From an uncultured Tateyamaria sp. (GTDB taxonomy: Bacteria > Pseudomonadota > Alphaproteobacteria > Rhodobacterales > Rhodobacteraceae): a DNA stretch of 64,000 nt. Where the stretch lies: NCBI GenBank assembly GCA_905480645.1, contig CAJQRC010000033.1, forward strand, positions 1-64,000, written 5' to 3'. Below are positions 42,739 through 64,000 of the stretch, piece by piece. Both the position numbers and the translations under genes were made by a program. How positions within the stretch are numbered: position 1 is the first letter of the stretch; the number at the start of each line of letters is the position of its first letter. Below the pieces are notes generated by a model that was not told the DNA's origin, ran no database searches, and saw nothing but the letters and a program-made list of their open reading frames with translations.

Positions 42739-43737
42739 ATGACAGTTTATGCTCTCAATGGCCTTGGCCGTATCGGTAAACTTGCTTTGCGTCCATTATT
42801 GGAGCGGTGAGCACAAATTGCATTTATTAATGATGCGGCTGGCACGCCAGATATGATGGCATATCTGCTGGAGTTTGACTCAGTCCATGGACGCTGGCCG
42901 GCCCAGTTTGATGCTGATGCAAACAGTATTAAAATTGATGATGAACGGATCTTGGTAACAAATTTTAAAAGGCTTGAACAACTGCCGTTGGGATCGGTTG
43001 ATGTTGTGATTGATTGTACTGGTGCATTTAAGACTGAAGCGAAATTAGCACCATATTTTCAAGCTGGGATCAAAAAAGTGATTGCCTCGGCGCCAGTTAA
43101 AGATGGACCTGCAACAAATATTGTTTACGGTGTAAATGATAAAATTTATGATGCCGATTTGCACAACATCATTACCGCAGCGAGCTGCACAATCAATTGT
43201 CTGGCTCCAGTTGTAAAAGTCCTGAATGAAGCTATTGGGATACGTCATGGTTCGATAACTACAATCCATGATGTCACTAACACTCAAACTATTGTTGATC
43301 GTCCGGCTTAAGACTTTCGGTGAGCGCGCTCTGCTTTGACAAATCTAATCCCTACAACTACAGGTTCTGCTACAGCAATCACCATGATTTATCCTGAACT
43401 AGCGGGTAAACTAAACGGCCATGCGGTTCGGGTTCCTTTGTTGAATGCATCCTTAACAGACTGTGTTTTCGAAATGAACCGAGAGACTACAGTAGGGGAG
43501 GTTAACCAAAGCTTTACGGCCGCTGCAAATGGTCCTTTGAAAGGTATTCTTGGTTTTGAGATGCGACCCTTAGTATCTTCTGATTATCGTGGAGATCCAC
43601 GTAGCGCTGTAATCGACGGACTTTCGACGATGGTCCTAAATGGGACACAACTCAAGGTCTACGCTTGGTACGATAATGAATTTGGTTATGCTAACCGATT
43701 GGTTGACGTGGCTCTCATGGTTGGTGGCCGATTGTGA
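42739..43737 (+). pseudogene. Glyceraldehyde-3-phosphate dehydrogenase of the ArsJ pair, three in-frame stops
   Basis: One continuous frame encodes a full-length GAPDH: NGLGRIGKLALRPLL (NAD site), AASCTINCLAP (catalytic Cys), [26 protein letters not shown] and [14 protein letters not shown]. It is interrupted by TGA 42808-42810, TAA 43309-43311 and TGA 43321-43323, with no frameshift. Paired with arsJ (GTGA overlap at 43734-43737), such GAPDHs make 1-arseno-3-phosphoglycerate, which ArsJ exports, giving arsenate resistance. All three stops can be explained by single-base changes. Confidence 0.85.
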
Positions 43738-45966: not shown

Positions 45967-47142
45967 TTAGCTAAAAACTTTGTGATCAATTTGATTTTTA
46001 CTAATGTAATCCCAATCGTATTCCGCCCCAATGCCAATTCCTTCTGGAACCCCGATACAACCATTCTCATCTATACATTCTAGCTGATCTGAGTAGCCAC
46101 ATTTGTATACGGGTGCGACAGCGTTTGGACAGTTTGGGCCAACTAATGCAACTTCGTAAAAGTTTGAATTACGGGACATACTAACGAGGTGTCTGTGTGC
46201 TGGACCGCACGCATGAACTTCAACATCCATTCCCAAGCTTTCAGCTAAATGATGGATTTTCATACATCCTGTGATCCCCATATCATATTCTGGATCCGAA
46301 CGTAAAAAGTCTGTACCTCCAGCAAGCACAAAGTCGGCCTTTGGCTCGACACCCCTAATATGCTCTGTTTGAAGCAGCGGTGTCTTGAGCATTTCTCTTA
46401 GCTTTCGATGTCCAAATGCGGATACACCACTATCACGATACGGATCTTCAAACCAAAAATAGTTTGCCTCGTCACATGCCCGTCCCACGTAGAGCGCATC
46501 TGCAAAAGTACGCAGTTCGCAAGCAGGATCTAGCATTAAGGTCATATCATCGCCAACTATTTTACGAACGTGCAGTACCAATTCAGCCTCTTCTTTGGCG
46601 TTGCCGTCATGCCAGCCATGAATCTTAAAAGCTTTGTAGCCCATTTCTTTGCACTCAAGTGCAAACTCCCCAAAGGCTTCCTTACTATCCAAACCCCCAT
46701 TTCGATCACCGTGATAGGTGCTTGCGTATGCAGGTATATTTTTCCGATAACTCCCCAATAAACTTGATATTGAGCAACCTAGTGCACGACCTTGCCAGTC
46801 CCATAATGCGATATCCAACGGCCCATGCCCCATGTGGTCAAATTGGCGGGCCTCTCTTTTTAATTCTTCATAAATCCCTACGCGCTCTTCTGCTTGTTTT
46901 CCAATTAACATCGGAGCAAGCATTTGCATTTGGCCATAAACTGACGGAGATGCACCCCAATTTAGAACGTAGCCGCCTTTGCAGCCATCCTTTGTTATTA
47001 TTTCTACTGAGTATTTGGTAGTTAGTGTTTCAGTGTTTGCGGCGTAAGATAAACCGCCAATAGAGCTAGTATTTGCACTGAGAGCTAAATTCTTTGCATG
47101 AAATTGAAATGCACGAAGTTCAACACGTTCAATCGCTGTCAT
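45967..47142 (-). CDS. Enolase-superfamily sugar-acid dehydratase-like protein
   Basis: A 391-residue mandelate-racemase/muconate-cycloisomerase-type enzyme (usual length 370-400). Metal ligands are likely Asp205 (LMLDPACEL), Glu232 (WFEDPYRD) and Glu260 (QTEHIRG); His310 lies in VEVHACGP. The base motif is K-I-H (173-175, in AFKIHGWHDG), whereas many family members have K-x-K. Last gene of an operon after an aldolase and a PfkB kinase, which suggests dehydration of an aldonic acid to a 2-keto-3-deoxy acid. GGAG precedes the ATG by seven bases. Confidence 0.82.
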   Translation of the reverse strand: MTAIERVELRAFQFHAKNLALSANTSSIGGLSYAANTETLTTKYSVEIITKDGCKGGYVLNWGASPSVYGQMQMLAPMLIGKQAEERVGIYEELKREARQFDHMGHGPLDIALWDWQGRALGCSISSLLGSYRKNIPAYASTYHGDRNGGLDSKEAFGEFALECKEMGYKAFKIHGWHDGNAKEEAELVLHVRKIVGDDMTLMLDPACELRTFADALYVGRACDEANYFWFEDPYRDSGVSAFGHRKLREMLKTPLLQTEHIRGVEPKADFVLAGGTDFLRSDPEYDMGITGCMKIHHLAESLGMDVEVHACGPAHRHLVSMSRNSNFYEVALVGPNCPNAVAPVYKCGYSDQLECIDENGCIGVPEGIGIGAEYDWDYISKNQIDHKVFS

Positions 47143-47229
47143 CTATCTACTCCAAAACTTTATTCAGTTCATCTTTAGTAACTGAATTATACTGCTCACC
47201 TTGGCAATGCTCACGGGCTGTTGAAGCAT

Positions 47230-48261
47230 CTAATGCAACTGATTATGCCAGCCGAATTCTGATGCCAGTCTTATGCATTCAGACCACCCTACAACAGCGT
47301 CTGTTGTTCCGATATGCCTCATAGATGCTGCTGCAGTTGCATGGGCGATCCGAAGTGTTTCTTCAACAGACCAATTTTGATGAAGGCCATATAATGCTCC
47401 GGCCGCAAAAGCGTCGCCAGCTCCATTCGTTCCTATGATTGAGTTTGAGGGCATATTAACAGATGGTGCTAAAAAGTAGTTTCCATCTTGAGAAACAGCT
47501 ACTGCTCCCAGTGGAAAGTGAACAATGATGAGTTGTATATCTGTCCCATTTAAAAGTTTTTTGGCGTTTAAAATACAAGCATTTATATCAGTGTTTTGGA
47601 TGTGATCCCTCGGCTGTCCTGCTACTGCTGCAATTTCAAACTCATTTATGATCAAATAATCGAGATATTTAAGACATGGGGTAACCAGACTATTCAACCT
47701 TTTTGGGGAAAGAGAACACAATTCAAGATTGGTTCGTAACCCGGCCGTCTGTGCCTTTTTTAGTACAGCTGCCCAGCCATTTTGCTCTCCTGCCCAAGGA
47801 ACATCCATTTGAGCATGAAGCCCTGGTAGGCCAAGATGTAGAATACGGGACTCCACATCAGAAAAATCAAAGTGATTAGGATTTAATTTGTCGCTTATTC
47901 CTGAATGAAATAAGTGGGTCCTACGAGACGAATTTTGTGCGGTGAAAGCATCAGTAAAAGTAGTGCGTTGACCAGAGACGATTGTGAGATTTTGACAATC
48001 TAATCCCTCAAATTTTGCTTGCTGTAACAATAGTTTCCCATCGGAATCGTCTCCAAGTAACCCAATAGTTGCAACTGGTAATTCAGGATCAAGCCGTTTG
48101 ATATTAACGCCAAGATTACAAGCGGAGCCACCTCCACGAATTTCCTCTGAAATAATTTCCACCAGTTCTTCTTCATTTGGCCAACGCTCCACCAGCTTAT
48201 TATGGTCGGCGCACCAAGTACCGCCAGTAATAATGCCATGTCGCTGTTTTTGACTACTCAT
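47230..48261 (-). CDS. PfkB-family sugar kinase
   Basis: A 343-residue ribokinase-family enzyme. The N-terminal region has GGGSACNLGVNIKRL (about residue 43) and the ATP/catalytic motif GTNGAGDAFAAGALYG (about residue 283) includes the conserved catalytic Asp. It would phosphorylate a sugar or 2-keto-3-deoxy sugar acid. The start overlaps the aldolase stop by four bases (48258-48261) and the dehydratase follows after 87 bases. Substrate inferred only from context. Confidence 0.85.
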   Translation of the reverse strand: MSSQKQRHGIITGGTWCADHNKLVERWPNEEELVEIISEEIRGGGSACNLGVNIKRLDPELPVATIGLLGDDSDGKLLLQQAKFEGLDCQNLTIVSGQRTTFTDAFTAQNSSRRTHLFHSGISDKLNPNHFDFSDVESRILHLGLPGLHAQMDVPWAGEQNGWAAVLKKAQTAGLRTNLELCSLSPKRLNSLVTPCLKYLDYLIINEFEIAAVAGQPRDHIQNTDINACILNAKKLLNGTDIQLIIVHFPLGAVAVSQDGNYFLAPSVNMPSNSIIGTNGAGDAFAAGALYGLHQNWSVEETLRIAHATAAASMRHIGTTDAVVGWSECIRLASEFGWHNQLH

Positions 48262-49265
48262 TCGGCTTCAGGCTTTAATGTTGGATCTGTTACTTCTAGA
48301 TCTTCAAGCAGCGATCGTTGTGCAACTACATTTTTTTTTGTCAGACAATCATGATAAGCAGTGACAGCTTCTCGAGTACTTAGCCCGTTTTCTACGACAG
48401 CTCGCATAAGGCGAACAATTTCAACTGCATCTTCCGCGCCGTATATTTTCCGGCCAAAAAGGGCTACTCTTCCACCATATCGTTCGGATTGGGCCAGAAG
48501 TTCAAAGGTATCGCGCGTTGTTCCTGCAGCCCCACCTAAAACGCCAACAATTAAATTAGCCGGGTCAAAGGAAGCGAGCTCCTCCATTGCACGAGCTCCA
48601 TTATATTGCAGTTTAAGGAATAATGGTCGTTCGGTTTTTGCAACACCAGCTAGACATCGTGTGATTGCGTCATTTATGAACGTTCCCAAATTTGTGTTAG
48701 CAGTATCTATATCAAAGGCAGGGTTAAACACTTCTAAAAAATGTAACATACCAAATTTATTGGCTTCTTCACGAAAGTCACAATAAGCATTTAACATCGC
48801 TGTATCAATTTTTTGATTGTTATAAAATGTGATAGCATAAAGTCCTAATTCACATAATTCTCTAGCCTTTTTTAATCTTGCTGTGCGAAATGGTTCGGCT
48901 GGGAACTCTCTGTATTTCGCGCCGCGAAACCCCCATATGTCGGTCGCATCGTTCAAGCGTACTGCCGCGGTGATATCGCGATTATCAAAGGCTTTTTGAG
49001 CAGTTAATTCATCTGCGGACCACATTGAAGTCAGCATGATGTCCACAAGATCAGCCTCCATCATTTCAATCATGGAAGCTCTGTATTCCGCAGCAGTCTT
49101 TGCTTTCTTATTTCCATTTTTATCAACTTTAAAACCGAGACCGTTGATGCCACCACCCATATCGGCATCTTTTGCATCGGCAATTATAAAATCACTTTGT
49201 GTATAGTTTCCGTTTTTTATGGATGATAATTTTTTGGTCAGTCGGTCACTAATTTTGGTACACAT
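48258..49265 (-). CDS. DeoC/LacD-type class I aldolase-like protein
   Basis: A 335-residue TIM-barrel protein. The probable Schiff-base lysine is in RPLFLKLQYNG (about residue 224), followed by LIVGVLGGAAGTT and RVALFGRKIYGAED, resembling the phosphate-binding end of DeoC/LacD/FbaB aldolases. I start at ATG 49265; the frame opens at a TTG at 49274. First gene of the aldolase-kinase-dehydratase operon. It should cleave the phosphorylated keto acid or ketose to a triose phosphate; exact substrate unknown. Confidence 0.7.
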   Translation of the reverse strand: MCTKISDRLTKKLSSIKNGNYTQSDFIIADAKDADMGGGINGLGFKVDKNGNKKAKTAAEYRASMIEMMEADLVDIMLTSMWSADELTAQKAFDNRDITAAVRLNDATDIWGFRGAKYREFPAEPFRTARLKKARELCELGLYAITFYNNQKIDTAMLNAYCDFREEANKFGMLHFLEVFNPAFDIDTANTNLGTFINDAITRCLAGVAKTERPLFLKLQYNGARAMEELASFDPANLIVGVLGGAAGTTRDTFELLAQSERYGGRVALFGRKIYGAEDAVEIVRLMRAVVENGLSTREAVTAYHDCLTKKNVVAQRSLLEDLEVTDPTLKPEAE

Positions 49266-49621
49266 TGAGGACAAATTCCGCTCATATAATTGTTTAATCG
49301 GTTTTTAATTCTGGTAACTCTAGTCACTAACTTAATGGGTTAACAAGTTTTAGATTTTTTTTTGGTGAGGCTTTAGGGCGGCTGCAAGCGCACATTGCTA
49401 TAACGAAATTATTCTTAATACTTAGCTCTCTTCCTACCCACTCGTGCCTGAAGTAGATTTGATACAGTGTCTCAGTGACAGTACTATATATTTTATTATT
49501 TTATCGAGACACTACTAGATAAGCATTACTGATTGAACTTCGGCGAAGTTGGGATTTTTGGAATAAGCAAAGTTGCGCCGTTACCATCATATGAACAAGG
49601 ATTTGATTAGGACTTACAACA
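49266..49621. other. Divergent intergenic region
   Basis: About 355 bases between the aldolase operon and a small plus-strand gene. Promoters for both are expected. AT-rich; no palindrome strong enough to call as an operator. Confidence 0.3.
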
Positions 49622-51879: not shown

Positions 51880-53331
51880 TTATTTATGTAGAGTTGTTCT
51901 TGCAACCGCTTGCCGCCAATCATCACGCGTCAGCTTTATTTTTTGAGGAAATATTGGTTCTCCATGTGCTTCCAACATAGCGAGTTCATTTAACGACGTC
52001 CAAAACCCTGTTGCAAGCCCGGCAAGATGTGCAGCACCAAGCGCTGAAGATTCAGTTTTAAGACAAGGTGTTACTGGACGTGAAAGATTATTTGCTACGA
52101 GCTGCATCAAAAACTGATTACTACTGGGGCCACCATCAACAAAAAGTTGCCCTATATCCGCCAACGTTTGCACCATAATCTCGTAAACATCTGTAACCTG
52201 ATGTGCCAGACTATCGGCAGCCGCTCGTGCGATGTGTGCTGGCTCAATGTTGAATGATAGGCCCGAAAGTAGACCGCGCGCATCAGTGTCCCAGTAAGGG
52301 GAGCCTAGGCCCACATGCGCAGGAACTAGACAGACGCCTTCTGCATCTTGGACAGTCTTCGCTAATTCCAGCAATGCATCTACGCTAGGCAGCCCCATTA
52401 TTTTGGTCAACCAAGGAAAAATAGAGGCGCTGACCAAAATGTTTCCCTCAAAAGCATAAGTTGATGTCCCATTAAGAGACCAAGCAATTGTGGTGGTTAT
52501 ACCCATAGGAGGAGTTGTAAACCTTGGAATAGTTGTCATAACGGATGATCCTGTCCCAAAGGTTATTTTTCCATCACCATTCTTAAAAGCGCCGTGACCA
52601 AACAATGCAGCGTGAGAGTCGCCAATAGCGGATGCGATTGGCACTCCATCTGGTACAACGCTGGCCCCTAAGGTCAGTGCAAAATTGTGCGATGAGTCAT
52701 GGACCTCAGGCAAACAAGTGGGATCAATGCTAAAAAGTTCACAAAGCTCTTGGTCCCATTGGTTTTGTATTAAATTAAATAGTTGTGTTCTTGAGGCATT
52801 AGATCGGTCTGTTGCATGCAGCGTACCACCTGAAAACTTCCAGATAAGCCAACTGTCTACAGTGCCGATACAGATATCGGTAACATTACCTCCATAGTTT
52901 TCAATAAGCCAAGTAACCTTGGTTGCTGGAAACATTGGGTCAAGTGGCAGGCCAGTTTTGGCAATTACCATTGGTTCGTAACCTGCCTTTTTGAGTGTTT
53001 CGCACGCGGCGGCTGTACGACGGCACTGCCACGTAATGACTGGGCCAAGCGGCTTACCCGTTTTACGGTCCCAGATCAGAACGGACTCACGCTGATTGGA
53101 GATTCCCAATCCTTTGATTGAAATTTTTGAAACGTCTTCTATACAGCTTGTAATGGCCTTTTGGGTCGCCAGCCATATTTCATCGGCATCCTGTTCTACC
53201 CAACCGGATTGTGAGTGTTTTATCGGGACAGCGGCAAATCCGGTAGAGATGATAGTACCTTTTTGATCCACAACCACTGCTTTTGCGTTAGTCGTGCCTT
53301 CATCGATTGCGAGGATAACGCTTTGCACCAC
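51880..53331 (-). CDS. FGGY-family carbohydrate kinase, glycerol-kinase-like branch
   Basis: A 483-residue ATP-dependent sugar or polyol kinase. Phosphate-binding motif IDEGTTNAKAVVVD at residue 9; SNQRESVLIWDRKTGKPLGP (about 75) resembles glycerol kinase, but the following W-Q-C-R-R-T has Cys where GlpK has Asp. FGTGSSVMT (about 260) and DGGPSSNQFLMQ (about 395) are also present. Start is GTG 53331, two bases after the transketolase stop. Last gene of the operon; ketose phosphorylation before cleavage by the split transketolase is the likely role, as with apulose kinase. Confidence 0.85.
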   Translation of the reverse strand: MVQSVILAIDEGTTNAKAVVVDQKGTIISTGFAAVPIKHSQSGWVEQDADEIWLATQKAITSCIEDVSKISIKGLGISNQRESVLIWDRKTGKPLGPVITWQCRRTAAACETLKKAGYEPMVIAKTGLPLDPMFPATKVTWLIENYGGNVTDICIGTVDSWLIWKFSGGTLHATDRSNASRTQLFNLIQNQWDQELCELFSIDPTCLPEVHDSSHNFALTLGASVVPDGVPIASAIGDSHAALFGHGAFKNGDGKITFGTGSSVMTTIPRFTTPPMGITTTIAWSLNGTSTYAFEGNILVSASIFPWLTKIMGLPSVDALLELAKTVQDAEGVCLVPAHVGLGSPYWDTDARGLLSGLSFNIEPAHIARAAADSLAHQVTDVYEIMVQTLADIGQLFVDGGPSSNQFLMQLVANNLSRPVTPCLKTESSALGAAHLAGLATGFWTSLNELAMLEAHGEPIFPQKIKLTRDDWRQAVARTTLHK

Positions 53332-53333
53332 TA

Positions 53334-54293
53334 CTAAACCTTTCGCTTAATCAATTTATATCCGCGCTCTACAATACCATTTGGTGACATGCCAAACTCA
53401 TCAAGTAGGAAATTTGCTGATCCGGTTGGTGCAAAAACTCCAGGGACACCAAGGCGCTCCATTGGAACGGGACAATGATCTACGACTACTTCGGCCACTG
53501 CACTGCCAAGGCCGCCAAAGATTGTATGCTCTTCACAGGTAAGAATAGCGCCGGTATCATTTGCCGCTTCAATTATGGCGTTTTCATCGATTGGACGAAC
53601 GCTTGCCATATTTAAGACTCGGACTGATAATCCATTGTCCTCTAGAATAGCAGCTGCCTTTAGCGCACGATTAGTCAATGTTCCATTGCTAATAATTGTT
53701 AAATCGTTTCCATCTCGCAAAATATTAGCGCGGCCTAACTTAAAAATGTAATCATCAGGCAGAATATCTGGCACGCCAATGCGGCTGAGCCGCAAAAAGC
53801 AAGCGCCATAATGTGCTGCTGCCCATTTCACAGCGGCGGCTGTCTCTATTCTGTCTGTGGGTGCTACGACAGGTATATTGGGTAATGCGCGTATCCAGGC
53901 AAAATCTTCAATAGAGTGATGTGTTGCTCCTAATTCACCATAGGCCATTCCGGAGCTGATGCCCACTAACTTCACATTAGTTTCAGAGTAGGCCACATCG
54001 GCCTTTATTTGTTCAAGTGCACGACCCGTCAGAAAGGACGAGGCGGCACACACAAAAGGTATTTTTCCACCATTTGCAAGCCCTGCACTGACGCCTACCA
54101 TATTCTGTTCTGCAATGCCGACATTGATTAAACGTTCTGGAAACTTATCGCGAAACCCAGTTAGCTTTGATGAGCCGACGGAATCATTTACAACAGCCAG
54201 AATGTCATTGTTTGCAGCACCAAGATCTTCCAATGTATCAATAAAAGCATCACGGCAATCATACAGCTTTGCAGGCCCGGTAGGTGCTTTCAT
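53334..54293 (-). CDS. Transketolase C-terminal subunit
   Basis: A 319-residue protein holding the pyrimidine-binding and C-terminal domains of transketolase: NVGIAEQNMVGVSAGLANGG (about residue 57; Glu for thiamine diphosphate activation), HHSIEDFAWIRALPN (about 125), and a C-terminal domain from 190 with GAILTCEEHTIFGGLGSAV. It works only with the N-terminal subunit, encoded upstream with a four-base overlap (54290-54293). Confidence 0.88.
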   Translation of the reverse strand: MKAPTGPAKLYDCRDAFIDTLEDLGAANNDILAVVNDSVGSSKLTGFRDKFPERLINVGIAEQNMVGVSAGLANGGKIPFVCAASSFLTGRALEQIKADVAYSETNVKLVGISSGMAYGELGATHHSIEDFAWIRALPNIPVVAPTDRIETAAAVKWAAAHYGACFLRLSRIGVPDILPDDYIFKLGRANILRDGNDLTIISNGTLTNRALKAAAILEDNGLSVRVLNMASVRPIDENAIIEAANDTGAILTCEEHTIFGGLGSAVAEVVVDHCPVPMERLGVPGVFAPTGSANFLLDEFGMSPNGIVERGYKLIKRKV

Positions 54294-55111
54294 TCTGCTG
54301 CCTTTTTAAGTTCGTCCATAGCTTGCTTATATTGTTCCGCATTTGGTACTCGGTGATGCCAGGTAACATCGTCGGACATAAACGAGATTCCTGCACCTTT
54401 ATTTGTATGAGCGACAATACACGTCGGTTTGGCGGGCACGATCTTATCTTTGTCTAGTGCGTTGACAATTTGATCCATATCATGACCGTTGATTTCCTGC
54501 ACGTTCCAGCCGAAGGCCTCAAATTTGGGACGCAGAGGAGTAATATCAATCGTATCTGCTAGGCGAGCGCCTTGTTGTAAACGGTTGTGGTCAATGATCA
54601 GTGTTAGGTTATCAAGCTTGAACTGTGCACCAGCCATGATGGCCTCCCAGTTGGAACCTTCCTGCATTTCCCCGTCTCCAGTAATGACGAAGGTACGCCA
54701 GTTTTCTCGGTTTAATTGAGCTGCTTTAGCCATACCAACAGCGATAGGGAGACCATGACCCAATGGCCCAGTGTTGGTTTCAACTCCTGGTACTTTTTTG
54801 CGATTAGGATGCCCGTTCAAACGTGAGTAAGGTTGCAGAAAGGTTTTGATTTCTTCTTTCTGTATAAACCCTTTTTCAGATAAAACGATGTAGAGAGCTA
54901 ATGCTGTGTGCCCTTTACTCAACACCAGTCTATCTCTCTTAGGATCGGACGGATTTTTGGGATTTACTGACATCACTTTAAAATAAAGTGCTGTTAGTAG
55001 ATCGATTACAGACATTTCCCCACCAACGTGCCCAGCCCCCGCTTCAAATACAGCTTGGACATCGCGCCGCCTGATGCAATTAGCAACTGTACGCAGCTCT
55101 GAAGAATTCAT
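54290..55111 (-). CDS. Transketolase N-terminal subunit
   Basis: A 273-residue protein with the diphosphate-binding domain: GHVGGEMSVIDLLTALYF (about residue 27), SKGHTALALY, TGPLGHGLPIAVGMAKA (about 115) and the thiamine-diphosphate motif GDGEMQEGSNWEA...N (about 145-175). The start MNSSELR at 55111 is chosen as a normal N-terminus; the frame opens to 55168 with a TTG. It forms the split enzyme with the next gene and moves two-carbon units. Two-gene transketolases in kinase operons occur in apiose and sulfosugar breakdown. Confidence 0.85.
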   Translation of the reverse strand: MNSSELRTVANCIRRRDVQAVFEAGAGHVGGEMSVIDLLTALYFKVMSVNPKNPSDPKRDRLVLSKGHTALALYIVLSEKGFIQKEEIKTFLQPYSRLNGHPNRKKVPGVETNTGPLGHGLPIAVGMAKAAQLNRENWRTFVITGDGEMQEGSNWEAIMAGAQFKLDNLTLIIDHNRLQQGARLADTIDITPLRPKFEAFGWNVQEINGHDMDQIVNALDKDKIVPAKPTCIVAHTNKGAGISFMSDDVTWHHRVPNAEQYKQAMDELKKAAE

Positions 55112-55275
55112 GAATAGCTCTACATATAAATTCAAATAAACGATTGCGCGCACTACTTCGCGTGTCAAGGTATCACGGCCTAATTTCTATGCCAAACTTG
55201 AACGACAGATCGTGAACCCTGAAGGTTAGGGATTTAAAATACCTCAGCCCAAATGCTTTGTATCTCAATTTCTTA

Positions 55276-55313
55276 TATACGGTTAAATTATGATTATACG
55301 GTTAAATTATGAT
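55276..55313. repeat. Perfect 19-bp tandem duplication upstream of the transketolase-kinase genes
   Basis: TATACGGTTAAATTATGAT occurs twice in a row (55276-55294 and 55295-55313). It lies between the isomerase gene and the transketolase N-subunit, about 165 bases upstream of the latter's start. Could be a regulator binding site or a simple replication slip. Confidence 0.6.
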
Positions 55314-55465
55314 GCTATGAAATTTTTAGATTTTTAATTGTGGTATTGGTCTTTTTTGTTCTAGGTAAGATTATCGTCGATATGGTCTAAAATGTTTTAT
55401 ACGATCGAAATATGATAAAATTTTAATTTTAAAGATAGCTATCGGAACGAGGACTGTTTTCTATC

Positions 55466-56932
55466 TCAGACTAATGAGGGAAGGGTAGGGATTGGTTCGA
55501 TCTCTCCATTGTGATGGTAAGTTGGGATGCGTAGATAACGTGTAACCGCTTCATACAGCGCATCTGCGTGGTGTCCGCGGACCATTGCCACGTGGTGCTC
55601 AAAACCATTTTGTGTAACGAACTGCATTAATTTGCGTAGCTTAGCTACTTGAGTTACCGCAATGCCACCATCCATCCCAAACGGATCGTCTGTGAAGAGC
55701 CCATCACCGATATAAGCCTTTAGGGTGCCGTTTTGATCATCAGAGGAAATGCGGAAGTAAGTCATATCACCGGCCTGAACCTTCCCTTTAACTGCACCGA
55801 AACACTTTGCTCTGCCAATGACCTCACCTAAAACGTCGAGCTCACTTATTTCCGGCTTCTCTCCAATGAACGATGCTGGGAAGTTACCGCAGTGAGTGCA
55901 AACGCATTTGTCAGTTACCCGTCCATAATTATTATTCCAATCAAGGATTGCAGCTGGTGCAGCCGATGCAAGAGTGAGGGCAAACATCGACACTGCCCCC
56001 ATGACGTCAACTTCACAGGCAGACGGGCTTAGATCTTCCCCCATCATTGACATAGTTACGCAGGTTGCACATCCAAAGTTATCTTGAAGAGATCGCCAGC
56101 ATTGGATTGCTGAGGTGTCACACTCGTTTTCTTCGATCCAGCGGTTTACGGCAAGTGTCCACTTTGCTTGTACAGTGATTTGTTCTTTAGTGATATGAGG
56201 TGGTATAAAACCATACTCGCTTATGCGCTTCATGACAGATAATAGCTCCGGAGCTTCGTCACGAATTTCATTTGCAGCTGCCATCATCTCTGATAAATCA
56301 ACAGTCTGAACTGTGATTCCTGAGTTTTGTAGTAACTTCTCAGAGTATCGCATTGTTTGGAATGGACCGGTGCGGGCGCCAATTGCCCCAACTCGCGCTC
56401 CACGAATACCGCGTACCGTGCGGCATGTTCTCGAAAACCGGTCAAGATCCTTCCCGAATGCAACCTTATCAAGGTCCATCGTATGCTCTGTTGTCTCTGT
56501 AAAAGGAATGCCACACTGCCAAAAGTTATTTGCAATTGATATCTTGCCGCAAAATGCATCTCGCCGAGAGTGTACATCTACCGCTTCAATTTCATCGTTG
56601 CACGCCGCGAGTAGAATAGGGATCTTCAGATCAGTGCGATTAATTAGCTCTGCAATTGCAATCTCATCTCCAAAGTTGGGACATACTATCACGAGGCCGT
56701 CTAACGTCCCACGATGCTCTTTGAAAAATGATGCATATTTTGTAGCATCGTCAACTGACTGGATTGCACCGTTGGCCGTGGCGTCAAATGGCAAGGTAAT
56801 GCAGGAAATTCCAAGTAAATTCATCTGTTTGAGAACATCTTCACGTGCCTGTGCGCAGGGTTCTGGGCTAAAAAATGCACGACTTGCTATGACTAAACCG
56901 AGGCTAATAGGGCGTTCAAAATTTCGATTCAT
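55466..56932 (-). CDS. L-fucose/L-arabinose-isomerase-like protein
   Basis: A 488-residue protein of the fucose/arabinose isomerase superfamily. Expected metal ligands fall in GEDLSPSACEVDVMGA (Glu and Asp, about residue 300-310) and in the C-terminal HHVAMVRGHHADALYEA (His, about residue 455). It probably interconverts an aldose and a ketose; the family is broad and substrate is not readable. AGGA lies six bases before ATG 56932. It opens a minus-strand group with the split transketolase and FGGY kinase, 355 bases downstream. Confidence 0.75.
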   Translation of the reverse strand: MNRNFERPISLGLVIASRAFFSPEPCAQAREDVLKQMNLLGISCITLPFDATANGAIQSVDDATKYASFFKEHRGTLDGLVIVCPNFGDEIAIAELINRTDLKIPILLAACNDEIEAVDVHSRRDAFCGKISIANNFWQCGIPFTETTEHTMDLDKVAFGKDLDRFSRTCRTVRGIRGARVGAIGARTGPFQTMRYSEKLLQNSGITVQTVDLSEMMAAANEIRDEAPELLSVMKRISEYGFIPPHITKEQITVQAKWTLAVNRWIEENECDTSAIQCWRSLQDNFGCATCVTMSMMGEDLSPSACEVDVMGAVSMFALTLASAAPAAILDWNNNYGRVTDKCVCTHCGNFPASFIGEKPEISELDVLGEVIGRAKCFGAVKGKVQAGDMTYFRISSDDQNGTLKAYIGDGLFTDDPFGMDGGIAVTQVAKLRKLMQFVTQNGFEHHVAMVRGHHADALYEAVTRYLRIPTYHHNGEIEPIPTLPSLV

Positions 56933-57291: not shown

Positions 57292-57407
57292 CATAATAAG
57301 CACTGTACTTGCGGATAAGCATTATCACTGACAATCTGAAATCTTGAAGTTATTTGGTGGGCGCAAAAAATGATTGCCTGCGGTATGGGTGTTATGGAGG
57401 CAAAAGA

Positions 57408-58718
57408 TTGAAAACAGTTAAACCCAAGCAAAATTATGAGGACAAGGTAGTAAAGGAAACTGACCTTTTAGATCGGCCAATGCATCGCATCTGGTTGCTT
57501 GACCAAGCTCGAAATTTGCTTGATTTCTTTTTACCTTCCTCGATTAATCCAAAAGGCGGATTTTTTTCTCTTAACCAACACGGAGTGCCCGTTAATTCAC
57601 TTAATCCAGCTGGCCAAGAACGCAAATTACACAGCACAACAAGAATGGTGCATTGCGCGGTAATAGCCCATCAGTTGGGGCTGCCCGGAGCTGATGACGT
57701 TATTGATCATGGTATGGACTTCATATGGTCTCGTCACCGTGATCAAGATAAAGGTGGTTATTTCTGGGCGGTTGATGACATAGGAACCGTTAACCCATTG
57801 AAACAGGCTTATGGTCATGCATTCGTGCTGTTGGCTGCGGCGTCTGCCAAGGTTGCAGGGCACCCTGGTGCTGATCAGCTCTTGGAAGATGTGACAGGAG
57901 TTTTGCTTTGCAAATTTTGGGAGCCTGAATTTGGCGCAACGAGCGAGGAGTACCAGGCAGACTGGACACCTTTTAGTGCGTACCGCGGACAAAATTCCAA
58001 CATGCACCTTACAGAATCTCTGATGGCAGCATTCGAAGCTACTGGTGAGAATAAATATCTGGATATGGCAGTTTCAATTGCTGGTTTAATTATAAACCAG
58101 CATGCAAGAGCTGAAGGTTGGCGAGTAGCAGAACATTTCGATGATAGATGGCTTATAGATCGCCATTACATTGGTGACCCAATGTTTCGACCGAGTGGTA
58201 TAACGCCGGGCCATGCGTTGGAATGGGCCCGATTGCTCGTTCAGCTATGGGAGCTTGGGGGTAGGGCCAGCACTTGGATGTTAGAAGCTGCACAATCGTT
58301 ATTCTTGACGGCTTGCGAAACGGGGTGGGATGTTGAAAAAGGCGGTTTTTATTATACGCTTGATTGGGACAATCAGCCCAATCAGTCAGACCGTTTTTGG
58401 TGGCCCTGCTGTGAGGGCATCGCAGCAGCTAGCGTTTTACATAAGGTAAGTGATAATCCACAATTTCAACAATGGTATAGGCGCATTTTGGGGTTTACCA
58501 GTCGGTACCTGATTGACCGAAAAAATGGTGGCTGGTACGCAGAGCTAGACAGTGCCCTGTTGCCTATTGAGAATGTATTTGAGGGCAAACCTGATTTATA
58601 TCACTCTTTGCAAGCTTGCTTAATCCCTATGCTTCCAAGCAATGGAAGTGTTACGCAACACCTTACCTCAACTCGATACTGTGACCTTCTATCGAGTGAT
58701 GCGAAAGGCTTGTTTTGA
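57408..58718 (+). CDS. AGE-family sugar isomerase, YihS clade
   Basis: A 436-residue (alpha/alpha)6-barrel protein. It resembles E. coli YihS (sulfoquinovose/mannose isomerase) along its length, and active-site positions appear conserved: Arg79 (STTRMVH), His200 (GQNSNMH), His269 and Glu272 (TPGHALEW) and His399 (PDLYHS). Activity on a 6-sulfo or 6-hydroxy aldohexose is inferred. The start is TTG 57408, seven bases after GGAGG; the frame opens farther upstream with a second TTG at 57354. First gene of a plus-strand operon with a GMC oxidoreductase 19 bases downstream. Confidence 0.82.
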   Translation: MKTVKPKQNYEDKVVKETDLLDRPMHRIWLLDQARNLLDFFLPSSINPKGGFFSLNQHGVPVNSLNPAGQERKLHSTTRMVHCAVIAHQLGLPGADDVIDHGMDFIWSRHRDQDKGGYFWAVDDIGTVNPLKQAYGHAFVLLAAASAKVAGHPGADQLLEDVTGVLLCKFWEPEFGATSEEYQADWTPFSAYRGQNSNMHLTESLMAAFEATGENKYLDMAVSIAGLIINQHARAEGWRVAEHFDDRWLIDRHYIGDPMFRPSGITPGHALEWARLLVQLWELGGRASTWMLEAAQSLFLTACETGWDVEKGGFYYTLDWDNQPNQSDRFWWPCCEGIAAASVLHKVSDNPQFQQWYRRILGFTSRYLIDRKNGGWYAELDSALLPIENVFEGKPDLYHSLQACLIPMLPSNGSVTQHLTSTRYCDLLSSDAKGLF

Positions 58719-58737
58719 TTAGAAATCCCGTAGCATT

Positions 58738-60267
58738 ATGACAGAGATCAATCCGGATATTGTAATTGTCGGATCAGGTGTGGGAGGTAGCGCCGTAGCA
58801 CATCAGTTGGCTGGTTCAGGTGCTCGTATTTTAATTTTGGAACGTGGTGATTTTTTACCAAAAGAGCCACAGAATTCAGATGCTGATGCAGTGTTCATTC
58901 AGTCTCGTTATCGCACCAAAGACATTTGGCAGGATTCTGAGGGGTGTCACTTTCGACCTGGCCAGTATTACTTTGTTGGTGGACACACTAAGTTTTATGG
59001 CACAGCAATGTTCCGTTTTCGTGAAAGGGATTTTGATGAAAATCAGCTGGATGATGGGATTTCGCCGGGTTGGCCATTCAGCTATGATGAACTTGAACCG
59101 TATTACACTATGGCTGAAGAGTTATTTGGAGTACGTGGTCAGGCTGGCGATGACCCAACTGAACCCGTGCGAAGCGGCGCGTATCCTCATGCCGCTATCC
59201 CGCATGAGCCCATTATTGCAAACTTAGCTAATGGTTTAAGCCGGCAGGGGCTGCATCCTTTCAAGATGCCGTCAGCAATTGATTTTGGAACAAATGGCAC
59301 CTGCCGACGTTGCGGAACCTGCGATGCGTTTGCCTGCCGTTTTGATGCAAAGGGAGATGCGGAAACAAAACTTTTACGACCTACGCTGCGTCATGCTGAT
59401 GTTACGCTTTGGAAAAGTGCTCAAGTTATGCGTTTGATTCCCGATGAAAACGGGCAACGAATTGTTGCTGCTGAGGTTCTTAGAGGTGGTGAGCGGCTGC
59501 GCGTAAAAGCTCCATTATTCATATTGAGTGCTGGTGCGATTAATTCTGCATTAATACTTCTTCGCTCAAAAACGCATAATATGCCAGAAGGATTAGCTAA
59601 TCGCTCAGGTGTTGTTGGCCGGTATCTCATGAACCATCACTTAACTGGCCTAATGGGTATTTGGCCTTTTACCCATAATAAAACGCGGTTTCCTAAAACG
59701 ATGTCAGTTAATGATTTTTACAACGGGTTACCTGGTGATCCGATGGCACGTGGGAACATCCAGATGTTGGGTAATATTTCTGGCCCAATGATCAGTTCAG
59801 TTTTTCCCCAGATTCCTAAAGTTGCCGCAAATTGGCTTGGCCGACACAGTGTAGATTTCTTGGCGATGTCTGAAGATCCACCCAATCGCGAAAGCCGAGT
59901 GCTGGCTCTAGAAGATGGTGGAGTGCAAGTTAGTTACCGCCCTCGTGGTATAAAAGAGCATGATCGGTTCGTAAATCATGTTAAAAAAACATTGCGGCAA
60001 GTCGGATTTCCGATGGTTATACGCCATAGATTTGGCATTGAATCCCCTTCGCATCAGTGTGGCACTGTTCGGATGGGCTATAATCCGAACAAGTCTGCTC
60101 TGAACGACCTATGTCAAGCTCATTCGCACCCAAACTTGTTTGTTGTTGATGCTGGTTTTTTTCCTTCATCGGCAGCGTTAAATCCCGCATTGACTGTAGC
60201 AGCGCAGGCGCTGAGAGTTGGTGCTAATTTGCGATCTCGATGGCGCAACGATATGTTAATGAATTAA
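58738..60267 (+). CDS. GMC-family FAD oxidoreductase
   Basis: A 509-residue flavoprotein. The FAD motif GSGVGGSAVA is at residues 11-20, GGHTKFYGTAMFR around residue 81, CGTVRMG at about 440 (active-site His is in SPSHQCGTVRMG), and the C-terminal FFPSSAALNPALTVAA. Four cysteines in CRRCGTCDAFAC (about residue 183) are typical of the membrane-associated sugar/polyol dehydrogenase subgroup, but no signal peptide is seen. It would oxidise a sugar or polyol hydroxyl. It shares its operon with the YihS-like isomerase and AroE-like gene. Confidence 0.85.
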   Translation: MTEINPDIVIVGSGVGGSAVAHQLAGSGARILILERGDFLPKEPQNSDADAVFIQSRYRTKDIWQDSEGCHFRPGQYYFVGGHTKFYGTAMFRFRERDFDENQLDDGISPGWPFSYDELEPYYTMAEELFGVRGQAGDDPTEPVRSGAYPHAAIPHEPIIANLANGLSRQGLHPFKMPSAIDFGTNGTCRRCGTCDAFACRFDAKGDAETKLLRPTLRHADVTLWKSAQVMRLIPDENGQRIVAAEVLRGGERLRVKAPLFILSAGAINSALILLRSKTHNMPEGLANRSGVVGRYLMNHHLTGLMGIWPFTHNKTRFPKTMSVNDFYNGLPGDPMARGNIQMLGNISGPMISSVFPQIPKVAANWLGRHSVDFLAMSEDPPNRESRVLALEDGGVQVSYRPRGIKEHDRFVNHVKKTLRQVGFPMVIRHRFGIESPSHQCGTVRMGYNPNKSALNDLCQAHSHPNLFVVDAGFFPSSAALNPALTVAAQALRVGANLRSRWRNDMLMN

Positions 60268-60283
60268 TTTTGAAGGAATGTGT

Positions 60284-61126
60284 ATGAATTTTTTGCTGCC
60301 ATTAACTGGTTCATTTGCAATGCCTGCTGCAGAAAATCCGACAGTCGCAATGATTGAGGCTGCTTTCCGCCACCATGGCCTTGATTGGCGTTACTTGAAT
60401 TGTGAAGTGGAACCACAAAATTTAGAAGATGCGGTGCGAGGGGCACGTGCAATGGGCTGGCGCGGTTTCAATTGCTCTATTCCGCACAAAGTGGCAGTTA
60501 TTAATTATTTGGACGGTTTGGGAAAATCAGCAGAGATTATTGGTGCGGTCAATACTATTGTTCTTCGGGACAATAAGTTGATCGGTGAAAACACAGATGG
60601 TCGAGGGTTTGTAAGCGCATTACAAAAGGTGGTAGATCCGGCAGACAAAAAGGTTGTGCTCTTTGGTGCAGGAGGTGCGGCGCGGGCTGTGGCTGTTGAG
60701 ATTGCCCTGGCTGGTGCTGCGCAGATCACTATTGTCAATCGTAGCCAAGACAGGGGTGAAAAACTTTCACAACTTCTAAATGAAAAAACTCCTACTCCGG
60801 CTAATTTTGTTCTCTGGCGAGAGCCTTTTTTCATTCCAAAAGACACCAATATAGTAATTCACGCAACGTCTATTGGGCTTTTCCCCGATGTCGATGCGAT
60901 GCCAAATATAGATGTCAGTAGCTTAACAGCTAAAATGATAGTTGCTGATGGCATACACAACCCTCCATTAACCAGATTTTTGATGGCTGCACAGGCGCAC
61001 GGTTGCGTAACTGTAGACGGTTTGAGTATGTTGGTACAACAAGGAGTGATCGGCATAAAATATTGGACAGGTGTTGACGTTAATCCTAAAATTATGAGCG
61101 AAGCCTTGATCAAACTGAAGCTATAA
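60284..61126 (+). CDS. Shikimate-dehydrogenase-like protein (AroE family)
   Basis: A 280-residue NAD(P)-dependent enzyme (family length about 270-290). The substrate-site Lys is in CSIPHKVAVINYLD (about residue 65), Asp in GENTDGRGF (about residue 105), and the Rossmann motif in LFGAGGAARAVA. The N-terminus (LTGSFAMPAAENPTVAMIEA) differs from the usual S-x-S of AroE, so the substrate may differ too. ATG 60284 is six bases from AAGGA; the ATG at 60278 abuts it. Its place in a sugar operon suggests a catabolic, not aromatic, role. Confidence 0.78.
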   Translation: MNFLLPLTGSFAMPAAENPTVAMIEAAFRHHGLDWRYLNCEVEPQNLEDAVRGARAMGWRGFNCSIPHKVAVINYLDGLGKSAEIIGAVNTIVLRDNKLIGENTDGRGFVSALQKVVDPADKKVVLFGAGGAARAVAVEIALAGAAQITIVNRSQDRGEKLSQLLNEKTPTPANFVLWREPFFIPKDTNIVIHATSIGLFPDVDAMPNIDVSSLTAKMIVADGIHNPPLTRFLMAAQAHGCVTVDGLSMLVQQGVIGIKYWTGVDVNPKIMSEALIKLKL

Positions 61127-62134: not shown

Positions 62135-62563
62135 TTAGTATCGCTTACGAAAAAGCCCCCGCATTTCATAAAAGCTAGCTGCCTCTTCTAAAAATTCCGC
62201 TAATAGAATAGCCTGCTGTTCTTCTCTGAGTTTTTTAGATACTTGCAAAATGCTTTCTTTAGAATCTGCTCGTCCAGGACGCAACAATTCGTAAATTTCC
62301 ATTACTTGTTCTTGCGATAACCGTGTCATCTCCGCCGCACGTTTTAAGTTTTTCGCTAGTGCGTGGCGTCCGACCGAACTCGCGATTTGGGCTTGATTCA
62401 CCAACGCGCAGGACGTAATTCGTAAATCCTCTATGGTCACACTGCCATCAATGACTGCTTCCATAGTCAATGCGGGTAAAGGTTTACCACGGCTTCCTTT
62501 TACATCTTCAGGCCATTTCTCAGCTATTGGATAATCACTGGCAGTCATTGAATTGTTGGGCAT
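62135..62563 (-). CDS. pduE: Glycerol/propanediol dehydratase small subunit (PduE/DhaB3-like)
   Basis: A 142-residue small subunit. YPIAEKWPEDVKGSRGKPLP, LTMEAVIDGSVTIEDLRIT, NLKRAAEMTRLSQEQVMEIY and ELLRPGRADSKE match the PduE pattern along its full length. It joins the large and medium subunits in the adenosylcobalamin-dependent enzyme that dehydrates glycerol or 1,2-diols to aldehydes. ATG 62563 shares one base with the upstream stop (TAATG), and GGAGG lies upstream. Confidence 0.88.
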   Translation of the reverse strand: MPNNSMTASDYPIAEKWPEDVKGSRGKPLPALTMEAVIDGSVTIEDLRITSCALVNQAQIASSVGRHALAKNLKRAAEMTRLSQEQVMEIYELLRPGRADSKESILQVSKKLREEQQAILLAEFLEEAASFYEMRGLFRKRY

Positions 62564-64000
62564 TAGCGGACCTCCAGAAAAGTAATTTCAAGATCTTCAG
62601 GCGAGGCGTCATCTTTTGTCATGGCAGTTTCAATCGCGTAGGTCAGCGCGACACGTGCATGAAATCTTGCACCTAGAGCCTCTCCTTTGGTTGGCACTAT
62701 AATAGGGTCTGGAAGGTCACCTCCTGCATAGACTGTAGAGTTGAAACCCAATTTTTCATAATGCTTAAGGGTAGTAATTGGCGCGTTTGAAAAGAGTTCT
62801 AAATTGTTGTGTGGAAGCCGGTTTTTCTGATGAATCACAGCCGTACCTTTGGATTGAAGACCAATCCCCAGACCTGATCCAGAAAGACGCGCTGCACTAA
62901 GTCCGAGGAACGAGGTATCAGCAGTGTGCCAGAGACGGACGAGGCGCATACTGCCATGCCCATGTTCGATCCCAGTCTTAAGGGCTGCCAATACGTCACT
63001 TAACCGATGGCCCGCTAAGGTTCTAAATATCTTTGACCCAAAGCCCGGACTAACTCCCACAACAATTTCTTTTACATTTTTGCCAATAATAGCGGGCCCC
63101 ATTGTTTGATATCTAATTGATTTAGCTTCGGTTACCTTACTGGCGGCTTCGGCGCGTAACACTTCATCTCGGTCTAGCACGTCACGAATAGCAGCAAGTT
63201 CTTTGCGACGAGCTTCAGTCAAGCGATGTCCAGTACCTGGTCCAGTGTAGTTGTTTGGATCATTGATAGCACTAAGTACGTGACCGTCACGGACTACTGA
63301 AGATGTTTGAAGATAGTCACCAGAAACTCGTAATTTAACCAAGAACAGTAGGTTCTCGGCCTCAGCATAAAATTCGCCACGATAGAGTGAGCGGATTACA
63401 TCAATAACTGTAACGCCATTCTGATTAATTTTGTCACTGATTAAAGCGACTTCACGCGGAGCGAAACTTTCTGTATCGTTTGAGCCGGACGCCACAGCAA
63501 CCGAGCGTTTCATGTCTTCAGTAGCCTCGGCCAGTTGTAAATCTTTGAGAACAAATGCTAGGGCATCTATGGCTCTGCGGCGTAGGTCAAGCGAGCGGGC
63601 GTCTTCAACTGCGGTGAGCCCGCCATCTGCCTCAAAATCGCGTTGAAGGACTAAAAACTCTTCTATTTCTTCACCGTTGAAGGACGATGGATTGAAAGAA
63701 TTATCATACTTTAAAATTGAGCCAAATCCGGAACAAATCAGATCAGAGCCTCCAATCAGATAGGGTAGTACTTTTGCGGCCACTCGCATGTCGGATTCTG
63801 AATGGCGTGCATCGTTGCCGGATGCGCACTCCAGGTCTAACCAGACAGCGATAAGGTTCTCGGCCATGATCTCACGGACACCTCCAGGTACTGTAGATGC
63901 CAAAGGTGCTCCGTCAATCCCACCGTTTTGAGTTCCTTGAGATCCCATTCCGCGTTGTAAGCAAAGACAACGCGCTTCAAGATAAAGCATTGATTTAGAT
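62563..64000 (-). CDS. Fused large-medium subunit of B12-dependent glycerol/diol dehydratase (5' end outside window)
   Basis: The visible 3' part encodes about 478 residues. The first ~250 are the C-terminal end of the catalytic large subunit (MLYLEARCLCLQRGMGSQGT, LDLECASGND with the substrate-binding Asp, YDNSFNPSSF). They run without a stop into a medium subunit (KEIVVGVSPGFGSKI, LSGSGLGIGLQSKGTAVIHQ, NNLELFSNAPITTLKHYEKL). In Klebsiella these are separate proteins. The reading frame continues past 64000, so the start, about 300 residues and any cobalamin riboswitch lie beyond. No microcompartment genes are seen. Confidence 0.88.
   Translation of the reverse strand, partial: SKSMLYLEARCLCLQRGMGSQGTQNGGIDGAPLASTVPGGVREIMAENLIAVWLDLECASGNDARHSESDMRVAAKVLPYLIGGSDLICSGFGSILKYDNSFNPSSFNGEEIEEFLVLQRDFEADGGLTAVEDARSLDLRRRAIDALAFVLKDLQLAEATEDMKRSVAVASGSNDTESFAPREVALISDKINQNGVTVIDVIRSLYRGEFYAEAENLLFLVKLRVSGDYLQTSSVVRDGHVLSAINDPNNYTGPGTGHRLTEARRKELAAIRDVLDRDEVLRAEAASKVTEAKSIRYQTMGPAIIGKNVKEIVVGVSPGFGSKIFRTLAGHRLSDVLAALKTGIEHGHGSMRLVRLWHTADTSFLGLSAARLSGSGLGIGLQSKGTAVIHQKNRLPHNNLELFSNAPITTLKHYEKLGFNSTVYAGGDLPDPIIVPTKGEALGARFHARVALTYAIETAMTKDDASPEDLEITFLEVR

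Follow-up and report, generated by a model that had tools for sequence, protein, structure and literature searches.

Three adjacent genes in a 64,000-nucleotide stretch of DNA from an uncultured Tateyamaria sp. (contig CAJQRC010000033.1; this whole stretch is the window in what follows) encode an isomerase of the AGE family, a flavoprotein of the GMC family and a reductase of the shikimate dehydrogenase (SDH) family, and the last two recur side by side in other bacteria, where the reductase can be replaced by a member of an unrelated family. What is observed directly is the three genes with their family assignments, the recurrent pairing and the exchange of one partner for another. Our preferred reading of them, which is possible rather than probable, is that the trio forms a three-gene module, probably cytosolic, through which mannose and a ketohexose such as L-sorbose would converge on D-fructose, the latter via 5-keto-D-fructose (5-ketofructose or 5-KF). 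All three open reading frames (ORFs) are intact on the + strand, exactly where the original prediction, made from the letters of this DNA, had placed them, with gaps of 19 bp between the isomerase and GMC genes and 10 bp between the GMC and reductase genes. That prediction was also right that an isomerase of the AGE/YihS superfamily stands here with a GMC flavoprotein and an NAD(P) enzyme of the SDH family in an unusual cluster, unlike the genes of the sulfo-Embden-Meyerhof-Parnas pathway.

The evidence begins with the reductase, which, to judge by its sequence, likely acts on 5-ketofructose. The protein passes the aroE model TIGR00507 (212.2 bits, cut-off 200.2) and scores 72.5 bits with Shikimate_dh_N, and TIGR00507 therefore does not tell the 5-ketofructose reductase class from AroE. 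Searched against solved structures, it scores highest with 7COK/7COL, the 5-ketofructose reductase of Gluconobacter CHM43 (326 bits, E 1e-96), followed by shikimate dehydrogenase 1nvt with 191 bits. Identity is 55% to 7COK over 269 aligned residues, and 30-40% to the AroE of the same genome, E. coli AroE, YdiB and three other SDHs. In an SDH-family tree of 14 rows, whose very long AroE branches leave only the 7COK clade reliable, seven genome proteins including that of the window group with 7COK (eight rows, support 100/99), apart from AroE and YdiB; the protein is thus not the cyclitol-type dehydrogenase that had been predicted. The Ser-x-Ser motif, which holds the shikimate carboxylate in AroE, is missing (MPAAENP here, TPCADNP in 7COK, HSKSP in the genome's own AroE), and K71, N92 and D107 are invariant in 10/10 aligned orthologues, K71 and D107 being catalytic positions in this family. 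A housekeeping shikimate dehydrogenase was considered and rejected, because Ser-x-Ser is lost and a separate aroE, which scores over the family cut-off, lies elsewhere in the genome (G000:C9). For an SDH-related reductase of Tatumella, 5-KF was the sole substrate among the compounds tested, with NADPH as cofactor and D-fructose as product (PMC7954740).

That the GMC protein makes 5-ketofructose from a ketohexose is a claim that we would stop just short of calling probable. Both of its domains are recognised above their cut-offs (GMC_oxred_N, 48 bits; GMC_oxred_C, 52 bits). An AlphaFold2 model, built from 14 sequences (mean predicted local distance difference test score, pLDDT, 74.7; predicted template modelling score, pTM, 0.83), was compared with the PDB using Foldseek, and the top nine chains were all either the large subunit of fructose dehydrogenase (FDH) or the alpha subunit of FAD-dependent glucose dehydrogenase (FAD-GDH), with E values of 2e-35 to 7e-33, the next match being pyranose 2-oxidase at 4e-22. 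The catalytic His/Asn pair of the FDH large subunit is present (H439, N482). Four cysteines (C189, C192, C195 and C200) are possibly an Fe-S site. The FAD fold begins at residue 7 and no signal peptide is apparent by eye (no predictor was run), while no genes for the small or cytochrome c subunits of FDH were found among the adjacent ORFs, the rest of the genome not having been searched for them; we infer that the protein is cytosolic.

What ties these two proteins together is the regularity with which their genes are paired. This was assessed in 70 GMC loci, comprising 65 genome loci found by a pattern scan and five plasmid loci, which were not dereplicated (the GMC proteins of L074 and L075 are identical). 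In 41 of the 70, the GMC gene is followed on the same strand by the reductase gene, the tblastn matches of the two being separated by 17-68 bp, and an AraC-family gene match lies upstream in all 41 (partial in L045, in two pieces in L036). The plasmid loci come from a tblastn search that returned 504 records, eight of which were inspected; five, at 56-70% identity, were counted, and H6, H9 and H14 (44-47% identity) were left out. When plasmids were searched with the reductase first, 4/4 matches adjoined a GMC gene, the reductase being annotated as aroE (shikimate dehydrogenase) in three of these copies, with no annotation at that place in the fourth record. Of the plasmids carrying the pair, one is typed mobilizable and one conjugative.

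The partner of the GMC gene can change. A GMC tree of 73 rows, from which the partial L103 was left out, puts all 42 rows with a paired reductase, that of the window among them, into a single clade of 47 rows (95/86), the other five being unpaired. Its sister group, which does not have strong support (93/85), consists of one unpaired row and three in which the neighbour resembles 1,5-anhydro-D-fructose reductase (AFR) of the Gfo/Idh family. Since the partner is of SDH type in one GMC clade and AFR-like in its sister, the reductase family has been swapped beside a conserved oxidase. AFR-like genes lie within 300 bp of the GMC gene in 7/70 loci, and no gene of this type was found within the window. 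An SDR gene stands beside the GMC gene in 13 further cases out of the same 70, and 12 of them also have a distant AFR-like gene. These 12 loci (L078, L085, L087, L088, L091, L093, L094, L096-L098, L102 and L105), which are mostly betaproteobacterial, have a GMC protein at 52-59% identity, the SDR gene directly after it and the AFR-like Gfo/Idh gene farther away, and several of them include genes for a sugar ABC transporter, CoA-transferase, enoyl-CoA hydratase, aldehyde dehydrogenase, a second GMC protein or DUF993 (some recognised by eye); they would represent an oxidative sugar pathway.

Close to home the pair is rare. A GMC match that is full-length and exceeds 47% identity occurs in just one of 148 genomes, the window's own (a fragment of 74 residues at 54% is present in G040), and among 385 genomes of the class only the window's own has the reductase at E<=1e-60. 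This rarity, with the plasmid copies, fits horizontal acquisition of the pair. A broader generalisation, which we place on the unlikely side, is that the pair is a widespread mobile redox epimerase cassette, in which a cytosolic single-subunit relative of FDH would convert L-sorbose or another ketohexose to 5-keto-D-fructose inside the cell and a dedicated reductase encoded next to it would reduce this to D-fructose, the oxidase being kept and the reductase swapped between families (SDH-type, AFR-type and perhaps SDR-type).

As for the isomerase, it probably acts on mannose, which is a more plausible substrate than sulfoquinovose. It is a clear member of PF07221 (377 bits), its best matches among solved structures being YihS (229-241 bits), followed by chains 3gt5 and 5x32 (195-200 bits), which are of mannose-isomerase type. 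With the D-mannose isomerase model NF051846 it scores 367 bits, under the cut-off of 600, and a control, E. coli YihS, scores 501; NF051846 therefore does not separate the two types, and its score was rejected as proof of a mannose isomerase. The original prediction held that YihS-like active-site residues are kept, which is true of 11 of the 17 sugar-site positions of E. coli YihS that we selected and mapped (R55, Y111, N172, H176, E218, R240, H248, E251, P317, E320 and H383) but not of the other six (H49->A68, W51->H75, R238->M259, Q362->A378, K373->N389 and Q379->P395), of which H49->A68 is unsure since the alignment is gapped there. The 17 include catalytic and sulfonate-binding positions. 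Glu251 and residue 320 are described in PMC6333288. Among 48 loci of isomerase relatives (L123 and L189 are the same place), four (L125, L166, L183 and L190) have a mannosylglycerate-hydrolase-like gene (PF22422) some 1-8 kb away, a context that favours mannose as the substrate, weakly and circumstantially. ABC transporter genes are also near in these four clusters, which are likely to encode a route from mannosylglycerate to mannose to fructose.

In the window, the isomerase gene directly precedes the GMC gene, in the place that the AraC-family gene has elsewhere; no AraC gene of the pair-associated kind is found in the window, and the rest of the genome has only partial matches at 25-35%. 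At the level of whole genomes, the isomerase (E<=1e-60) occurs in 29/37 pair-bearing genomes, as against 50/295 genomes of the window's family and 8/385 of the class. Within a Rhodobacter-type subset the figures are 16/20 pair genomes versus 48/293 (Fisher p = 4e-9, ignoring kinship and sampling differences), where the 20 are those taken to be Rhodobacter-type and the 293, at most a minority of which was tested for the pair, are the family genomes minus the window's own and one overlapping. In eight rhizobial-type loci the isomerase shares a place beside a metH-like gene (recognised by eye), so that the genome-wide co-occurrence is in part inherited background. Transporter genes are not regular neighbours of the isomerase, to judge by its surroundings in 20 of the 29 pair-bearing genomes that have it and in 20 of the 49 other family genomes that have it.

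Several loci place the pair in a context of fructose. A CUT2-type transporter like FrcBCA occurs in the flanks of some pair loci; its FrcB-like protein is encoded in 4/41 pair loci versus 0/29 others, a difference that is not significant alone (p = 0.14). In Ancylobacter (L073) the pair, the transporter, a ROK-type regulator, a PfkB kinase and the isomerase occur together. In the window's own genome, contig C28 carries a PfkB kinase gene together with that of a CUT2-type binding protein 72% identical to the one in L053. L038, where an AraC gene, an AFR-like gene and a GMC gene are grouped, also has a GH32 enzyme.

The route that we propose would comprise three reactions, (i) interconversion of D-mannose and D-fructose by the AGE-family enzyme, (ii) oxidation by the GMC protein of the C5 hydroxyl of a 2-ketohexose, which would yield the 2,5-diketone 5-keto-D-fructose and pass electrons to some acceptor, and (iii) NADPH-dependent reduction of 5-keto-D-fructose to D-fructose by the SDH-family enzyme, a step suggested by the identity to the solved 5-ketofructose reductase and by the Tatumella assays. 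The most sensible substrate for the GMC protein would be L-sorbose, the C5 epimer of fructose, since a pair that began from fructose would be futile, and since 5-KF can be reduced to fructose or to L-sorbose according to which of its faces is attacked (PMC7954740). Oxidase and reductase would thereby form a C5 epimerase working in two redox steps, and their adjacency would keep a toxic diketone from accumulating; a reductase coupled in this way is sensible, given that 5-KF inhibits the growth of bacteria (PMC9253636). A PfkB kinase, such as that encoded with the sugar ABC transporter on C28, would then phosphorylate the fructose.

A number of observations weigh against this route. To our knowledge, no activity has been measured for any protein of this GMC clade. 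The GMC protein is only about 20% identical to FDH, and FDH N1146 is replaced by Ser438, so the sugar site differs; a sequence profile ranks FAD-GDH above FDH (196 versus 167 bits), and since both are near by fold, neither fold nor sequence settles the substrate. The model itself is weak around the active site, with pLDDT <50 at residues 76-89, 185-205, 433-436, 439-451 and 477-481. The pairing is not universal either, there being no recognised reductase beside the GMC gene in 9/70 loci (two of these, L092 and L103, on short contigs), and of six unpaired genomes that were searched at E<=1e-60, with the positive controls L047 and L073 both recovered, five (L042, L044, L046, L054 and L089) have no reductase, the sixth (L043) having it elsewhere in the genome. 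The original prediction named sporadic co-occurrence of the three genes as what would refute it; GMC and reductase are not sporadic in the loci counted above, but the isomerase is present in the fetched flanks of only 3/41 pair loci, namely two near-identical ones from Thioclava (L035 and L051; 32% identity to the window's isomerase) and that of Ancylobacter (54%, 7.9 kb away). The PfkB kinases of L073 and C28 are both below the fructokinase model cut-off of 450 (134 and 130 bits, respectively), and no L-sorbose gene turned up, though no systematic search for such genes was made. Finally, an SDH homologue from Clostridium that has 48% similarity to the Tatumella enzyme was inactive on 5-KF (PMC7954740). 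As for the two Thioclava loci themselves, they consist of AraC, GMC and reductase genes with the isomerase and an SDR gene, and the L035 stretch is bounded by IS1182 transposases, on a plasmid typed mobilizable.

The AFR swap makes a C2-ketosugar route the main rival, if an unlikely one. The GMC protein would here oxidise a pyranose at C2, giving glucosone from D-glucose or 1,5-anhydrofructose from 1,5-anhydroglucitol; the SDH-family reductase would reduce the C2 ketone to the manno form, as would the AFR-type enzyme in its place in relatives, and the isomerase would turn mannose into fructose, which amounts to a redox route from glucose to fructose. AFR reduces glucosone, and the AFR-like protein of the sister GMC clade (L038) scores 427 bits against 1,5-anhydro-D-fructose reductase 4KOA, which points to a C2-keto pyranose and is a further count against a 5-KF product; in L038, L077 and L104 such a partner has a gene of the same AraC family next to it. 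The close structural relatives of the GMC protein also include FAD-GDH and pyranose 2-oxidase, and a mannose isomerase would gain a direct role after the pair. Set against this, the window's reductase is in the 5-KF reductase clade, and the assayed Tatumella enzyme took only 5-KF among the compounds tested, glucosone and 1,5-anhydrofructose not being seen among them in the excerpt of PMC7954740.

Less likely again is that the reductase clears 5-KF arising in the environment or from side reactions, as detoxification or salvage, the GMC protein being loosely linked and acting on another polyol and the isomerase being an unrelated neighbour. The toxicity of 5-KF (PMC9253636), the ability of reductase-bearing bacteria to grow on it (PMC7954740) and the several GMC genes that stand without a reductase would all suit this explanation, while the tight pairing in 41/70 loci speaks for the GMC protein producing the substrate or using the same one. 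Improbable, in our view, is an electron valve, in which the GMC protein would oxidise D-fructose to 5-KF and the reductase would return it, so that NADPH electrons would reach the respiratory chain, as in a futile cycle or a transhydrogenase; the partners do resemble the forward and reverse enzymes of one couple, but no redox-balancing gene context was noticed, and some loci have sugar-transport and kinase genes nearby instead. Catabolism of sulfoquinovose or a cyclitol is very unlikely: the isomerase does align best with YihS among solved structures (241 bits), a divergent operon encodes a Fucose_iso_C (PF02952) isomerase with a weak match to NF048012 (sulfoquinovose isomerase SftI; 89 bits, cut-off 700) and a split transketolase, families that also serve the sulfo-transketolase (sulfo-TK) route (PMC9594981), and there is a PfkB kinase, the family of YihV, at 47230-48261, but the isomerase is only 34% identical to E. 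coli YihS with 6/17 mapped positions changed, relatives have a mannosylglycerate-hydrolase-like gene near them in 4/48 loci, the reductase falls in the 5-ketofructose reductase clade, no sulfoquinovosidase was recognised among annotated neighbours (the genome was not searched for one), and the FGGY kinase of the divergent operon is not mentioned for the sulfo-TK route in the excerpt of PMC9594981. Sulfoquinovose, one of the possible substrates in the original prediction, is therefore held unlikely, convergence on fructose being preferred.

Positions of the three genes and of individual sites within the window
Feature	Position	Strand	Remark
Aldose-ketose isomerase of the AGE family (PF07221) starting at TTG, probably of the D-mannose isomerase type (D-mannose <-> D-fructose)	57408..58718	+	
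GMC flavoprotein, fructose dehydrogenase / FAD-glucose dehydrogenase type, putatively cytosolic	58738..60267	+	
SDH-family reductase, 5-ketofructose reductase clade, in relatives annotated aroE	60278..61126	+	
GGAGG, probable ribosome-binding site of isomerase gene	57396..57400	+	sequence read
Codons of C189, C192, C195, C200 (GMC protein)	59302..59337	+	invariant 14/14 aligned relatives
H439 (GMC protein), aligned with fructose dehydrogenase H1147	60052..60054	+	
N482 (GMC protein), aligned with fructose dehydrogenase N1190	60181..60183	+	
K71 (reductase), catalytic lysine position of SDH family	60488..60490	+	invariant 10/10
D107 (reductase), catalytic aspartate position of SDH family	60596..60598	+	invariant 10/10

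The TTG start of the isomerase gene (57408) has GGAGG 7 nt 5' of it, and translation of the reductase may in fact begin at the in-frame ATG at 60284. Scans of the sequence for promoters and terminators gave a signal no higher than in shuffled sequence. The trio is divergent from a minus-strand operon (51880-56932) that encodes the FucI-like isomerase, the split transketolase halves and a glycerol-kinase-like FGGY kinase. This isomerase has no solved-structure match at E 0.01. Families of this operon perhaps also serve apiose routes; some are in common with the sulfo-transketolase route (PMC9594981). No evidence emerged that the trio feeds this operon, as had been suggested, and no co-occurrence test of the two was made. 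Farther away, 45967-49274 (-) encodes an enolase-superfamily dehydratase, the PfkB kinase and a 338-aa protein that matches nothing in Pfam or NCBIfam at the thresholds applied; from their positions they resemble a sugar-acid dehydratase/kinase/aldolase set. A glyceraldehyde-3-phosphate dehydrogenase gene at 42853-43737 (+) is split by a stop codon in frame (43311), and the N-terminal part of the domain is missing from the first of its ORFs; it is either a pseudogene or a sequencing error. On the other side of the trio, a diol/glycerol dehydratase is encoded at 62135-63999 (-), where one ORF joins the end of a large-subunit domain, which runs past the window edge, to a medium-subunit domain and is followed by an ORF that by eye resembles the small subunit.

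If the preferred reading is true, it would (i) explain what a two-gene cassette does that recurs in bacteria of Rhodobacter, Rhizobium and, in some cases, Burkholderia type, (ii) extend 5-ketofructose metabolism to further bacteria than those described in the cited literature and (iii) provide enzymes with which the candidate sweetener 5-ketofructose could be made or sensed. As the reductase is annotated aroE, the pair is easily missed in pathway reconstructions, and no description of it was found in the PMC-searchable literature (subscription papers being mostly outside that search).

Each member of the module has known counterparts, from which it differs in definite ways. The isomerase belongs to the same AGE superfamily as YihS of E. 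coli and Salmonella and the Pseudomonas-type D-mannose isomerase (NF051846), its distance from the former being that given above (34% identity, 6/17 mapped positions changed). FdhL of the membrane-bound D-fructose dehydrogenase (7W2J and variants) is among the best Foldseek matches of the GMC protein, which shares its catalytic His/Asn pair and differs in having no adjoining partner subunit genes, in its identity of ~20% and in Ser438 for N1146. The alpha subunit of Burkholderia cepacia FAD glucose dehydrogenase (6A2U, 8HDD) is the best profile match of the GMC protein (196 bits), again with low identity and no partner subunit gene adjoining the GMC gene. A Cys-rich stretch is common to all three proteins, with a spacing in the GMC protein unlike that of the other two. 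The reductase has the Ser-x-Ser loss and the catalytic Lys, Asn and Asp positions of 5-ketofructose reductase 7COK/7COL, from which it is set apart by its pairing with a GMC gene. Lastly, 1,5-anhydro-D-fructose reductase (4KOA, 2GLX) is the counterpart of the enzymes that sit in the reductase's place beside related GMC genes, although it is of the Gfo/Idh/MocA family and unrelated to SDH.

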